Source: Flavobacterium sp. CYK-55 (lineage in GTDB: Bacteria; Bacteroidota; Bacteroidia; Flavobacteriales; Flavobacteriaceae). From it: a DNA stretch of 64,000 bases. The notes beneath the pieces were generated by a model. The model had not been told where the DNA came from, did not search any database, and saw only the letters and a program-made list of their open reading frames with translations. The DNA lies in contig NZ_JAHCDK010000010.1 in assembly GCF_018413465.1 (NCBI RefSeq), positions 62,001 to 126,000 on the forward strand, given 5' to 3'. Made by a program: the position numbers and the translations under genes. Shown piece by piece: positions 6,960-60,229 of the stretch. Within the stretch, counting starts at the first letter, position 1; every line of letters starts with the position of its first letter.

Positions 6960-7082
6960 CTATACGGTGAAACGCAAACCCTAGCCCTGACCGCAGCGGA
7001 TATCCTTTTGCTAAATGCCCAACTTTGCTTTAACTCAAAAATATCCGAGCAAAAGATATAAGCGTAGGGCAGGTTCCCGGCT
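6960..7082 (-). repeat. Dispersed hairpin repeat, copy 1
   Basis: On the minus strand the element reads GAGCCGGGAA...ATATCTTTTGCTC...AAAAGGATATCCGCTG...AGGGCTAGGG. The facing ATCTTTTGC and GCAAAAGGAT segments make a long imperfect hairpin. The same layout recurs at six other places in the window, listed separately. No ORF or tRNA signature is present. Confidence 0.65.
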
Positions 7083-7837: not shown

Positions 7838-7960
7838 CCTCACGCCGCGCTATTCGTTTCAATCTTTTACTCCGCTTTGCTCCGCAAAAGGATTTCCACT
7901 GCTATCGCTAACGCAACCCTGTTCCAAATCTACGCTTGTTTTTTTCTTGCAGCGCAGCGG
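7838..7960 (+). repeat. Dispersed hairpin repeat, copy 2
   Basis: The forward strand carries the family layout: CGCTATTCGTTTCAATCTTTTACTC, then GCAAAAGGATTTCC, then ACTGCTATCGCTAACGC. It fills most of the rplY-prs gap. A 181-codon reading frame runs through it into the antisense of prs and is not a gene. Confidence 0.6.
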
Positions 7961-11407: not shown

Positions 11408-11512
11408 TTTATCAGAAGCTCATCCGGCTCTGCGCTTTTATCTGGGCTTGCTCAAGACCGCCGCCCAGGATAACCGCTGCGATCCGGGCTAGGGCAGTAG
11501 CGGTTGGGCAAA
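11408..11512 (+). repeat. Dispersed hairpin repeat, copy 3
   Basis: The forward strand reads AGCTCATCCGGCTCTGCGCTTTTATCTGGGC, then GCCCAGGATAACCGCTGCGA and TCCGGGCTAGGGCAG. This is the family layout, with a GGGC/GCCC-closed hairpin in place of TTTT/AAAA. It lies between the 5' end of umuC and the 3' end of nuoN. Confidence 0.7.
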
Positions 11513-17694: not shown

Positions 17695-17800
17695 GCCTTT
17701 TCCCGCTATCCGCTTTATCTTTTTTTGCCTTTGGTTTTCGTTGCACTACAACGCAAAAGCTAAAAAAGGATGCCGCTTCTATCGGGGCTAGGGCATTGGG
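17695..17800 (+). repeat. Dispersed hairpin repeat, copy 4
   Basis: This is the clearest copy: TTTTCCCGCTATCCGCTTTA, then TCTTTTTTTGCCTTTGG, a CGTTGCACTACAACG inner hairpin, AGCTAAAAAAGGATGCCGC and TTCTATCGGGGCTAGGGCA. It lies inside the nuo operon between the ORF6N gene and nuoI. Confidence 0.75.
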
Positions 17801-44346: not shown

Positions 44347-44440
44347 GAAGCTCATTCCCGCTCTGCGCTGCAATCTTTGGGTTCTTCAAGAAAGAACCAA
44401 AAGGATTTCCGCTTCGATCGGGGCTAGGGCAGCAGAGAAA
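44347..44440 (+). repeat. Dispersed hairpin repeat, copy 6
   Basis: AAGCTCATTCCCGCTCTGCG, CTGCAATCTTTGGGTTCTTC, AAGAAAGAACCAAAAGGATT and TCCGCTTCGATCGGGGCTAG follow one another, giving a hairpin GGTTCTTCAAGAAAGAACC in the middle. It begins right at the sucA stop codon and separates sucA from sucB. Confidence 0.75.
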
Positions 44441-57585: not shown

Positions 57586-58603
57586 ACCGCGCATCTTGCT
57601 GATTTATACCGGTGGCACCATCGGGATGGTCAAAGATTTTGAGACCGGAGCCCTCAAGGCATTTAACTTTTCAGAGCTACTGCACAACATTCCTGAACTC
57701 AAACAACTCGATTGCCATATTGAGACCATCTCTTTTACCGAGCCTATTGATTCATCAAACATGAATCCGGCTTATTGGGTCAAAATGGCTGATATGGTCG
57801 GAAATCACTATGCAAAATTTGATGGTTTTGTAGTGTTGCACGGCTCAGATACGATGTCGTATTCGGCCTCGGCCTTGAGTTTCATGCTCGAGCATTTAGC
57901 CAAGCCGGTGGTGTTTACCGGATCACAATTACCCATTGGCGATTTGCGAACCGACGCCAAAGAAAACCTCATTACAGCCATACAAATTGCTTCGTTACAA
58001 CACAAAGGCAAACCGGTGATTCAAGAAGTTTGCTTGTATTTTGAATACAAACTCTACCGCGGTAACCGCACCACCAAAATCAACGCCGAACACTTCAATG
58101 CATTTACCTCGCCCAACTATCCGGCCTTGGCCGAATCAGGCGTGCATTTGCTCGTGAACCACGCAGCGCTATGGCCACAAGACAAAGCCAAAAAACTCAT
58201 CGTACACCACCAGCTCGATAGCCATGTAGTGGTGCTCAAAATGTTTCCGGGCATGAATGAAACCGTGCTCAATGCGGTGTTGTCAATCCCAGGATTAAAA
58301 GGCATCGTACTTGAAACCTACGGCTCGGGCAATGCACCCACCGAAAACTGGTTTGTACAAGCGCTCAAAAAAGCCATCAAATCAGGCCTGCACGTGGTAA
58401 ACGTAACCCAATGTTCAGGCGGAAGCGTGCGCATGGGGCAATATGAAACCAGCACCCAACTCAAAAAAATAGGCGTGATATCAGGCAAAGACACCACCAC
58501 CGAGGCCGCTATTACCAAACTTATGTATTTGCTTGGTCAAAACGTAGCCCCGGCCGTGTTCAAAACCATTTTTGAAACATCCCTACGGGGCGAACTCAGT
58601 TAA
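57575..58603 (+). CDS. ansA: Type I (cytoplasmic) L-asparaginase
   Basis: It hydrolyses asparagine to aspartate and ammonia. The 342-residue protein has the asparaginase/glutaminase signatures: IYTGGTIGMVKD with the nucleophilic Thr, VVLHGSDTMSYSASAL with the second catalytic Thr, and LRTDAKENLITAI. No signal peptide is present, in line with type I. It overlaps the acyltransferase gene by 11 bases. Confidence 0.93.
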   Translation: MQSKPRILLIYTGGTIGMVKDFETGALKAFNFSELLHNIPELKQLDCHIETISFTEPIDSSNMNPAYWVKMADMVGNHYAKFDGFVVLHGSDTMSYSASALSFMLEHLAKPVVFTGSQLPIGDLRTDAKENLITAIQIASLQHKGKPVIQEVCLYFEYKLYRGNRTTKINAEHFNAFTSPNYPALAESGVHLLVNHAALWPQDKAKKLIVHHQLDSHVVVLKMFPGMNETVLNAVLSIPGLKGIVLETYGSGNAPTENWFVQALKKAIKSGLHVVNVTQCSGGSVRMGQYETSTQLKKIGVISGKDTTTEAAITKLMYLLGQNVAPAVFKTIFETSLRGELS

Positions 58604-58646
58604 TTTTTTTAAGTCAATAAAAATACATTTATTTGCACCCCAACAG

Positions 58647-58733
58647 AGAGAGGTGTCCGAGTGGTTGAAGGAGCAAGCCTGGAAAGTTTGTATGTGGGCA
58701 ACTGCATCGTGGGTTCGAATCCCATCCTCTCTG
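58647..58733 (+). tRNA. tRNA-Ser (anticodon GGA)
   Basis: The acceptor AGAGAGG pairs with CCTCTCT (58726-58732), with discriminator G at 58733. The D arm, the anticodon loop CTGGAAA (anticodon GGA), a long variable arm (about 58691-58709) and a T arm with TTCGAAT between GTGGG and CCCAT are all present. The length of 87 nt is right for class II Ser. CCA is not encoded. Confidence 0.94.
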
Positions 58734-58740
58734 CAAGACA

Positions 58741-58769
58741 AAAACCAAAGCGACAGCTTTGGTTTTTTT
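58741..58769 (+). terminator. Terminator of tRNA-Ser
   Basis: AAAACCAAAGC/GCTTTGGTTTT with the GACA loop (58752-58755) is followed by a T run. Confidence 0.85.
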
Positions 58770-59433
58770 ATAAAAGAATTGTGCGTCGAAAGTTCACTTT
58801 CGTAAGCAGAATTCTTTTATAAAAATCCCAGCTTTTGCAAAAAGCTGGTTTTTATCTTGACCACTGACCCCCCACAGGGATCACCGCAGGTAATCCCGTC
58901 CTAATCCCAGAAAACCATCCCCGTCGAAAGTTCACTTTCGTAAGCAGAATTCTTTTATAAAAATGCAGCTTTTGCAAAAAGCTGGTTTTTATCTTGACCA
59001 CTGACCCCCCACAAGGGAACACCGCAGGTAATCCCATCCTAATCCCAGAAAATCATCCCCGTCGAAAGTTCACTTTCGTAAGCAAAATTCTTTTATAAAA
59101 ATCCCAGCTTTTGCAAAAAGCTGGTTTTTATCTTGACCACTGACCCCCCACAAGGGAACACCGCAGGTAATCCCATCCTAATCCCAGAAAATCATCCCCG
59201 TCGAAAGTTCACTTTCGTAAGCAGAATTCTTTTATAAAAATCCCAGCTTTTGCAAAAAGCTGGTTTTTATCTTGACCACTGACTCCCCACAGGGATCACC
59301 GCAGGTAATCCCGCCCTAATCCCTTAAAAACCACCCGCTTCAAAAACAACCCTTATTAAAAGTTCTCACCAAAATACCGCAGGTGTTTTGTAACCGAATA
59401 GATATAAAAATCATCCCCTAAAACACCGCAGGT
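58766..59433. repeat. 138-bp tandem array downstream of tRNA-Ser
   Basis: Units start with GTCGAAAGTTCACTTTCG at 58785, 58923, 59061 and 59200 (spacing 138, 138 and 139 bp). Each holds CGAAAGT/ACTTTCG, the terminator-like hairpin CCAGCTTTTGCAAAAAGCTGG with a T run, and ACCGCAGGT followed by AATCCCATCCT-like bases. Decayed pieces (ACCGCAGGT at 59376 and 59425) follow. Copy 1 is also flanked by an exact 15-bp inverted pair (58766-58780 and 58810-58824). No gene is present. Confidence 0.92.
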
Positions 59434-59480
59434 TTTCCGAACAATTATATAAATCAACAATAATAAAAATAAGCCAAAAT

Positions 59481-59512
59481 TTGGAATTCTAGTTTTTAAG
59501 CTTTTATATTTG
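59481..59512 (+). promoter_or_regulatory. Promoter of the NYN-gene leader
   Basis: TTG (59481-59483), a 21-bp spacer and TATATTTG (59505-59512) match the consensus. The expected transcription start is about 59519. Confidence 0.7.
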
Positions 59513-59518
59513 CATCAT

Positions 59519-59577
59519 AAACGCCACGCTTTACTGTTAAGTAAAGTATAGCTACCGACTTAGGTAGCTTTTTTTTT
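59519..59577 (+). promoter_or_regulatory. Structured leader with terminator hairpin (attenuator or small RNA)
   Basis: Hairpin 1 is CTTTACT/AGTAAAG (59529-59535, 59540-59546) with a GTTA loop. Hairpin 2 is AGCTACC/GGTAGCT (59550-59556, 59563-59569) with loop GACTTA and nine Ts to 59577. The ACTTA of loop 2 is complementary to TAAGT at 59538-59542. The RNA would end seven bases before the NYN start codon. Confidence 0.6.
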
Positions 59578-59584
59578 GCCTATT

Positions 59585-60229
59585 ATGAGAACAATTTACT
59601 ACATAGACGGTTTTAATTTCTATTACGGATTAAAGAAGAGTATTAATCAAATTCATCCAGAATGGAGGGCCTTTTATTGGATTGATTTTTTGAAATTTGC
59701 AAATCAATTTGCTTTACCAGGCGAAACAATTGAAAAGGTTAAATACTTCACATCTCCTCCACTTAATAGTGGTAAAAAAAGTAGACAAAGCGCATTATTT
59801 AAAGCCAATGATTTAATTAATAAGGATAGGTTTGAAGTCATAAGGGGAAAATATTATGACAAAGAGATTGTATGCTCTAATTGCGCAACTAAGTTTACTA
59901 AGCCAGAGGAAAAAAGAACTGATGTAAACATTTCTGTTAACATGGTAGGTGATTGCGCACTTGGTTTAGTTGATAAAATAGTACTAATTTCTGCGGACAG
60001 TGATTTAGTTCCTCCAATTGAATTTATTAAAAAGCATTTTCCAAATATCGATATTAAAATATTTTTTCCTCCAGGAAATTTTAGTTATGATTTAAAAGAT
60101 GTAGCTAAAGGAAAAAAAGTTGTTAGGCTGGAACAGAATAACTTTAGATTTAGAAATTCGATAATGCCGGACGAAGTATTTAATCATGACAAAACAGATA
60201 GCGCGAAAATTCCCCCTGAATGGAAATAA
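59585..60229 (+). CDS. NYN-domain (PIN-like) ribonuclease family protein
   Basis: The 214-residue protein starts at MRTIYYIDGFNFYYGLKK. An in-frame TTG at 59576 overlaps the T run and is unlikely. Acidic residues of the NYN fold are visible as Asp8 (YIDGFN), Asp113 (KRTDVNISVNM), Asp123 (VGDCAL) and Asp138/Asp140 (LISADSDL). A CSNC pair at 97/100 might hold zinc with other ligands. NYN proteins are predicted RNases. The gene is more AT-rich than its neighbours and sits alone beside the tRNA-Ser array, which suggests acquisition. Its leader ends in a terminator immediately before the start codon. Confidence 0.87.
   Translation: MRTIYYIDGFNFYYGLKKSINQIHPEWRAFYWIDFLKFANQFALPGETIEKVKYFTSPPLNSGKKSRQSALFKANDLINKDRFEVIRGKYYDKEIVCSNCATKFTKPEEKRTDVNISVNMVGDCALGLVDKIVLISADSDLVPPIEFIKKHFPNIDIKIFFPPGNFSYDLKDVAKGKKVVRLEQNNFRFRNSIMPDEVFNHDKTDSAKIPPEWK

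Follow-up and report, generated by a model that had tools for sequence, protein, structure and literature searches.

A conserved two-hairpin RNA beside genes for HEC-09-like NYN nucleases suggests an undescribed bacterial switch, perhaps of phage defence

In the window, which is the whole 64,000-nt stretch of Flavobacterium sp. CYK-55 DNA that was analysed, a gene for a NYN-fold nuclease is preceded by a short RNA that folds into two hairpins and ends at an intrinsic terminator. This observation is confirmed as real and as one case of a widespread pattern. The RNA is found beside related NYN genes in several structural classes and in more than one orientation, and copies of it are carried by viral contigs. 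The combination of nuclease and RNA suggests an undescribed bacterial switch, perhaps one used in phage defence.

The RNA leader and nuclease gene of the window

The features of the locus are collected in Table 1. The arrangement of two hairpins and nine Ts ending 7 nt before the NYN start codon, described in the initial annotation, is confirmed by the sequence and by the fold: the leader (59517-59577) has a folding energy of -19.5 kcal/mol and a z-score of -4.45, and none of 200 shuffled sequences was equally stable. The consensus promoter described along with it is less well read as a sigma-70 site: a generic sigma-70 scan scored 9/12 at the TATATTTG site, and sigma-70-like sites in the surrounding region (7 seen, 13.3 expected) are at chance level or below. 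TAnnTTTG is the -7 promoter consensus of Bacteroidota, and it occurs 50-130 nt upstream of 40/46 NYN loci versus 14/167 other ORFs. The window promoter, judged from its sequence, is better read as a putative promoter of this type.

Table 1. Features of the RNA and NYN nuclease locus (positions are those of the window)
Feature	Position	Strand	Basis
TTG of the -33 region	59481-59483	+	sequence
-7 element TATATTTG of the TAnnTTTG promoter type (Bacteroidota)	59505-59512	+	sequence, predicted
Two-hairpin RNA, about 60 nt, class A	59518-59577	+	fold, covariation, model R1
AACGCC motif in class A RNA	59520-59525	+	sequence
Hairpin 1	59528-59547	+	fold; 6/7 consensus pairs changed on both sides
Hairpin 2	59550-59569	+	fold; 5/6 consensus pairs changed on both sides
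T run, nine Ts; with hairpin 2 an intrinsic terminator between RNA and NYN	59569-59577	+	
NYN nuclease, 214 aa, HEC-09 family	ATG 59585, stop at 60229	+	Pfam, PADLOC, predicted structure

Searched against Rfam 15 at gathering scores, the window RNA had no match, the abiF RNA included. Ten further loci with RNAs of the same class (class A) were also without a match up to E 10, again including the abiF RNA, and among 12 loci of other RNA types searched up to E 1 no family rose above threshold. A sub-threshold overlap with anti-hemB was seen on the opposite strand of one viral copy, L480 (21.8 bits versus 49.5 needed, E 0.9). Elsewhere in the window there are five Flavo-1 RNA copies (6979-7080, 7839-7917, 11417-11494, 17695-17793 and 44350-44429), and a 3.9-copy tandem array of a 139-bp unit (58784-59323), whose units contain an AGCTTTTGCAAAAAGCT hairpin, separates tRNA-Ser(GGA) from the NYN promoter.

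The window protein matches Pfam NYN (2.9e-7), which was the sole match in a scan at E 0.1, neither a ToxN-type toxin nor Abi_2 being detected. Its match to the PADLOC HEC-09 model (4.9e-45, judged without a curated cut-off) places residues 2-213 on positions 3-202 of the 203-position profile, while NCBIfam and PDB sequence searches gave no match. An AlphaFold2 model built from 47 rows has a mean pLDDT of 95.8, and the nearest solved folds are VPA0982 (2QIP; Z 14.9, rmsd 3.0, 156 aligned residues) and then the NYN domain of MARF1 (5YAA; Z 14.3, rmsd 2.6, 147 aligned). Outside NYN proteins the matches of the fold search were of intermediate quality and included Rossmann-like folds as well as other nucleases; ToxN is not among the matches listed, an absence that proves nothing. 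Residues D8, N11, D113, D138 and D140 are invariant across the 47 rows, and conserved acidic residues are expected in a metal-dependent nuclease. The protein is thus a NYN-fold nuclease with conserved acidic residues and predicted catalytic activity. That the putative toxin is not ToxN and that the RNA lacks tandem repeats, both noted at the outset, agree with the Pfam result and with Tandem Repeats Finder, which over 58600-60000 detected the 139-bp array alone and no repeats inside the RNA.

The initial annotation had also linked the locus, through its position beside a tRNA gene, to mobility, and synteny and the spread of HEC-09 through the genus offered nothing for this beyond patchiness. 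The tRNA-Ser(GGA) gene follows the asparaginase gene in 15/19 relatives with flank sequence, and in the genome itself. The window NYN was not seen in those flanks of the relatives, save for a crude motif match in L445, a genome that had no NYN match in a separate search. Since these tRNA-asparaginase flanks occur without it, the NYN locus is patchy, and HEC-09 was matched at E 0.001 in 13/348 genomes of the genus, three of them weakly.

Association, covariation and orientation in the NYN family

As a single query the window NYN matched neither genome contigs nor viral contigs, and relatives were retrieved with alignment A2 as the query. Genome loci were limited to the best 80 of at least 392 NYN relatives, and there were 42 viral loci. 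Upstream regions were read at 87 loci (80 genome, 7 viral), and these together with the window and five others made up the 93 loci searched for hairpins. A terminator hairpin (hairpin 2) with a T run lies upstream of NYN at 91/93 loci, the misses being L121 and L076, an open NYN gene without the RNA. The refuting case named in the initial annotation, that of NYN homologues lacking the hairpin leader, thus failed at these related loci. Across 77 distinct RNAs, the distance from the end of hairpin 2 to the matched NYN stretch is 12-69 nt (median 29).

Dropping NYN genes more than 90% identical left 46 of the 80 genome loci as a non-redundant set. Two hairpins and a T run lie directly upstream of all 46 NYN genes versus 1/155 other ORFs of the same loci, and a terminator alone is found before 46/46 and 7/155, respectively. 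Terminators are thus not rare among the control ORFs, as would suit the idea that the hairpins are chance terminators of neighbouring genes, but the contrast for the two-hairpin structure and the strong covariation described below refute that idea for the sets tested, and we find it scarcely credible. Among NYN genes of other families, 0/8 have the RNA upstream on either strand; one of the eight, L018, has a match downstream.

The class A alignment holds 48 RNAs, including that of the window, hand-picked from the 77 distinct ones. Of its cells, 92.6% are paired, compared with 29-44% in slid controls, and the covariation score is 0.535 versus 0.202 when shuffled. Changes on both sides of a pair number 121 versus a shuffled mean of 37.4, with 0/500 shuffles as high. 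The same holds for the paired cells and the score, while for the other two measures 2 and 8 of 500 shuffles were as high. The loop of hairpin 1 is UUUCUU in 30/48 class A RNAs and is preceded by a GCAACGCC-like motif. A kissing interaction between TAAGT and ACTTA of the two hairpins had also been proposed and is not supported, as the mean longest loop-loop complementarity over the 48 RNAs is 1.67 both as observed and when shuffled; in the window it amounts to 3 nt, and part of TAAGT lies within a stem.

A second type, class B, consists of a GAUAGYAUC hairpin followed by CCGACGC...GCGUUUC. In its alignment (19 rows of 21 extracted, L030 and L022 being left out), 96.9% of cells are paired, and both-side changes number 44 versus 12.6 when shuffled (0/500 as high). 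Common descent of the two classes finds no support from model R1, which was built with the window RNA and gave 14.7 bits at the class B locus L029 and no match at most others. A third type, class C, is known by eye and from single folds only (L024, L058-L066, L172-L180 and L186; Leptospira and other groups); of the 13 examples that were folded, most have hairpin 2 lengthened by an outer helix (GCG or GCA with TTGC or TGC).

The position of the RNA is not the same in all clades. Members of the HEC-09-proper clade have the class B RNA directly upstream on the opposite strand (divergent), as do Thermus and Microbacterium plasmids, and in one small clade, L006-L008, the RNA is downstream and convergent. 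Orientation labels were first assigned by inspection, after which a detector was run at four positions to check them. In the co-directional set, 54/59 loci have the RNA upstream on the same strand and 5/59 fail the strict detector; the other positions gave 3 upstream opposite, 0 downstream same and 2 downstream opposite. The divergent set of chosen loci gave 20/20 upstream opposite and 0 elsewhere. The convergent set gave 1/3; in the other two the T run, on visual inspection, falls within the end of NYN. At L023, a member of the tree, the detector finds no RNA. When the four orientation labels are mapped onto a tree of 83 selected proteins, 3 changes suffice, which is the minimum possible, and the clade joining the divergent and convergent rows has modest support (90/80).

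These arrangements (divergent at 20/20 loci in one clade, co-directional at 54/59 elsewhere and convergent in L006-L008) argue for action in trans. They also bear on the proposal that the hairpins do no more than attenuate the NYN gene in cis, which would suit the terminator before the ATG in the window and at the 54/59 co-directional loci. A cis attenuator cannot explain the RNA of the divergent clade, and both the divergent and convergent clades and the copies without NYN stand against it. Attenuation as the sole role is rejected on the ground of orientation, and overall we consider it very unlikely. The initial annotation had left the choice between an RNA-controlled nuclease and a plain attenuator; the first is supported by the layout, and the second is the one disfavoured by the divergent and convergent clades.

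HEC-09-like NYN genes were also seen on plasmids of 3.5-5.4 kb in Enterobacteriaceae and Pseudomonas (L020, L021, L247, L249, L252 and L253), with upstream hairpins by single folds; of those placed on the tree, L021, L249 and L252 do not pass the strict detector. In-frame stops are present inside the matched NYN stretch at 7/80 genome loci, and the RNA is present in 6/7 of these. Such RNAs beside a broken NYN give weak support to the antagonist reading set out below, since L121-L123 have one stop in common and the sequences are mostly metagenome assemblies; the stops may be assembly errors. PADLOC matches at 1e-10 around NYN comprise 101 ORFs in 45 families, restriction-modification included (191 ORFs found, 140 listed), and were not counted as evidence because there was no control set.

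RNA copies apart from NYN genes

R1 scores 54.5 bits on the window leader. A search of the whole genome up to E 10 gave 57 matches, of which the NYN leader was the highest and the next scored 32.6 bits. Plain terminators reach 39.4 bits, and under about 40 bits the model loses its specificity. At E 0.01, 26/148 genomes were matched, and five matches inspected (four from this set and one from a set of 227 genomes) had no nearby NYN motif. Applied with strict filters (E 2e-4) to the 227 genomes of the class, R1 returned the window's own leader and one plain terminator, from which the class A RNA appears to be rare in the class; it was not seen free of NYN in these genomes. Its confinement there to the window's own genome counts against the antagonist reading set out below.

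In viral contigs, three RNA-only patterns were matched by 66, 4 and 97 stretches; all of the first two sets and 80 of the third were examined, and most of these matches look like chance. Structured RNAs with NYN just downstream number five (L295, L304 and L322-L324). Four structured class A RNAs occur without NYN (L272, 58.7 bits; L280, 58.6; L321, 50.3; L347, 45.6), along with two weaker ones, L291 at 39.5 bits, level with the best plain terminators, and L265 at 27.1, below them. Given the score that plain terminators reach, four of the six are clear. The HEC-09 profile had no match on these six viral records, contigs that may be fragments. The L272 RNA lies about 100 nt from the contig end; that of L280 has a TTGACA/TATAAT promoter and precedes an 80-aa ORF, a 90% identical relative of which occurs in L423 without the RNA. 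The hairpin 1 pattern of the window type was found on one viral contig, which has neither such a terminator hairpin nor the NYN motif.

For class B, the pattern gave 85 viral stretches, of which 80 were examined, 53 of them distinct. At least 3 of 4 free positions pair in 33/53 (shuffled mean 16.2, maximum 25), and GCGTYTC, which the pattern did not demand, is present in 23/33 of the pairing stretches versus 6/20 of the others. A second filter retained 49 stretches (28 distinct) as structured. Within the 1.5-15 kb searched around the copies, a NYN profile match was found at 1 of the 28 distinct loci (L506), and a NYN gene may lie outside this range at others. The viral neighbours differ, and include a terminase small subunit, homing endonucleases and an AAA ATPase (ten and nine proteins scanned). 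No T run is present in 7/28 distinct copies, which may serve another function. A nearly identical class B RNA is shared by 13 viral contigs (L460, L462, L467, L468, L475, L483, L488, L489, L501 and L529-L532), where it sits just before a GGAGG-like ribosome site and lacks a T run.

These viral copies could be decoys. It is also conceivable, if quite unlikely, that the phage RNA is itself recognised or cut by NYN, in which case the phage copies would be triggers and the host copy a substrate used for tuning. Such a scheme is in keeping with viral class B RNAs being mostly without NYN in the DNA searched and adjoining unrelated phage genes (the terminase small subunit and homing endonucleases), but a trigger RNA is expected to be lost by the phage, and the scheme leaves unexplained why, in every NYN clade examined, the gene has stayed next to an RNA of that clade's own type.

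A candidate RNA-inhibited nuclease and its relation to known systems

The association with NYN, the covariation, the viral RNAs without NYN and the RNA beside broken NYN genes point to the RNA being a trans-acting antagonist of the NYN RNase, which on sequence evidence we regard as probable. The promoter would give rise to an abundant short two-hairpin RNA that ends at the intrinsic terminator, and the NYN ribonuclease would be made by readthrough or, in the divergent clade, from a separate promoter. The RNA would then act in trans on the NYN protein, binding and inhibiting an otherwise toxic enzyme and so keeping it inactive. Loss of the RNA, as might follow the shut-off of host transcription by a phage, would free the nuclease to cut RNA, and phages with an RNA copy of their own would keep it shut.

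That the RNA lies close to NYN in more than one orientation, and that its fold and loops are conserved, would suit a ribonucleoprotein just as well. NYN would then depend on the RNA, as cofactor or sensor, to be active or to choose its targets, and the two would form an RNA-protein effector. However, neither the class A nor the class B alignment contains a variable guide-like segment, and the viral RNAs without NYN and the RNA beside broken NYN fit an inhibitor better, so that a cofactor seems unlikely. The antagonist reading extends, plausibly though at slightly less than even odds, to a so far undescribed family of NYN nucleases (HEC-09 and its kin) that spans several phyla and is inhibited by RNA. 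Its members would act in phage defence or as addiction modules; the order of RNA and gene would have been rewired between clades, and many kinds of phage would answer with decoy RNA. If true, one more nuclease fold would be added to the RNA-controlled toxins, and HEC-09, a defence candidate for which a protein model is all that is known here, would gain a mechanism. Its RNA partner would have escaped notice because annotation does not go beyond the gene, and the phage-borne copies would provide a large number of RNA inhibitors made by nature.

The window NYN matches the PADLOC HEC-09 model, which is a protein model alone, and the available portion of the HEC-09 account in PMC12447246 mentions no RNA. 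The same portion reports that in one study of Pseudomonas syringae the presence of HEC-09 was correlated with susceptibility to phage rather than with resistance, which counts against the reading of the RNA as an antagonist within phage defence. HEC stands for Hma-embedded candidate, and several HECs are antiviral, with HEC-06 but not HEC-09 named in the accessible text of PMC12988326; a further HEC reference, likewise available in part, is PMC10855318. The open-licence literature searched, in the extracts it offered and with bioRxiv outside its scope, names no RNA partner of NYN, and a description elsewhere is possible.

The NYN domain of MARF1 and VPA0982 (2QIP) share the fold of the window protein over about 150 residues, and to our knowledge neither has an RNA partner of this kind.

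AbiF and its abiF RNA (RCd22, RF03085) also pair a toxic nuclease with an adjacent ncRNA that has a terminator. AbiF is a HEPN/Abi_2 protein, whereas Pfam finds only NYN in the window, and the abiF RNA motifs were unmatched in the window (gathering scores) and at the 10 loci (E 10). According to the excerpts available of PMC12373285, RCd22 acts in cis and trans through direct binding.

Type III toxin-antitoxin systems (ToxIN, CptIN and TenpIN) likewise consist of a small structured RNA, an intrinsic terminator and a ribonuclease gene, and the likeness in layout drawn in the initial annotation stands in this respect; that one promoter always serves both parts is not supported, given the divergent and convergent clades. 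Phage-borne RNA mimics are known there too, phage PhiTE carrying a pseudo-ToxI antitoxin RNA (PMC3475682, in the part available). The Rho-independent terminator between RNA and toxin gene of a single operon is found by sequence in the window and at the 54/59 co-directional loci, and at 0/20 divergent ones. Type III antitoxin RNAs are pseudoknotted; the RNA here has two plain hairpins, and loop-loop pairing, the sole pairing compared, is at shuffled level. The nuclease here is NYN and by Pfam not homologous to ToxN, CptN or TenpN, orientation is not fixed across the family, and the RNA has none of the tandem nucleotide repeats of type III antitoxins (PMC5086642, as far as its available text goes). 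On account of its toxin family and the lack of repeats, the module is not a type III member. By analogy, we infer that it may work like the type III and AbiF-RNA systems while belonging to neither.
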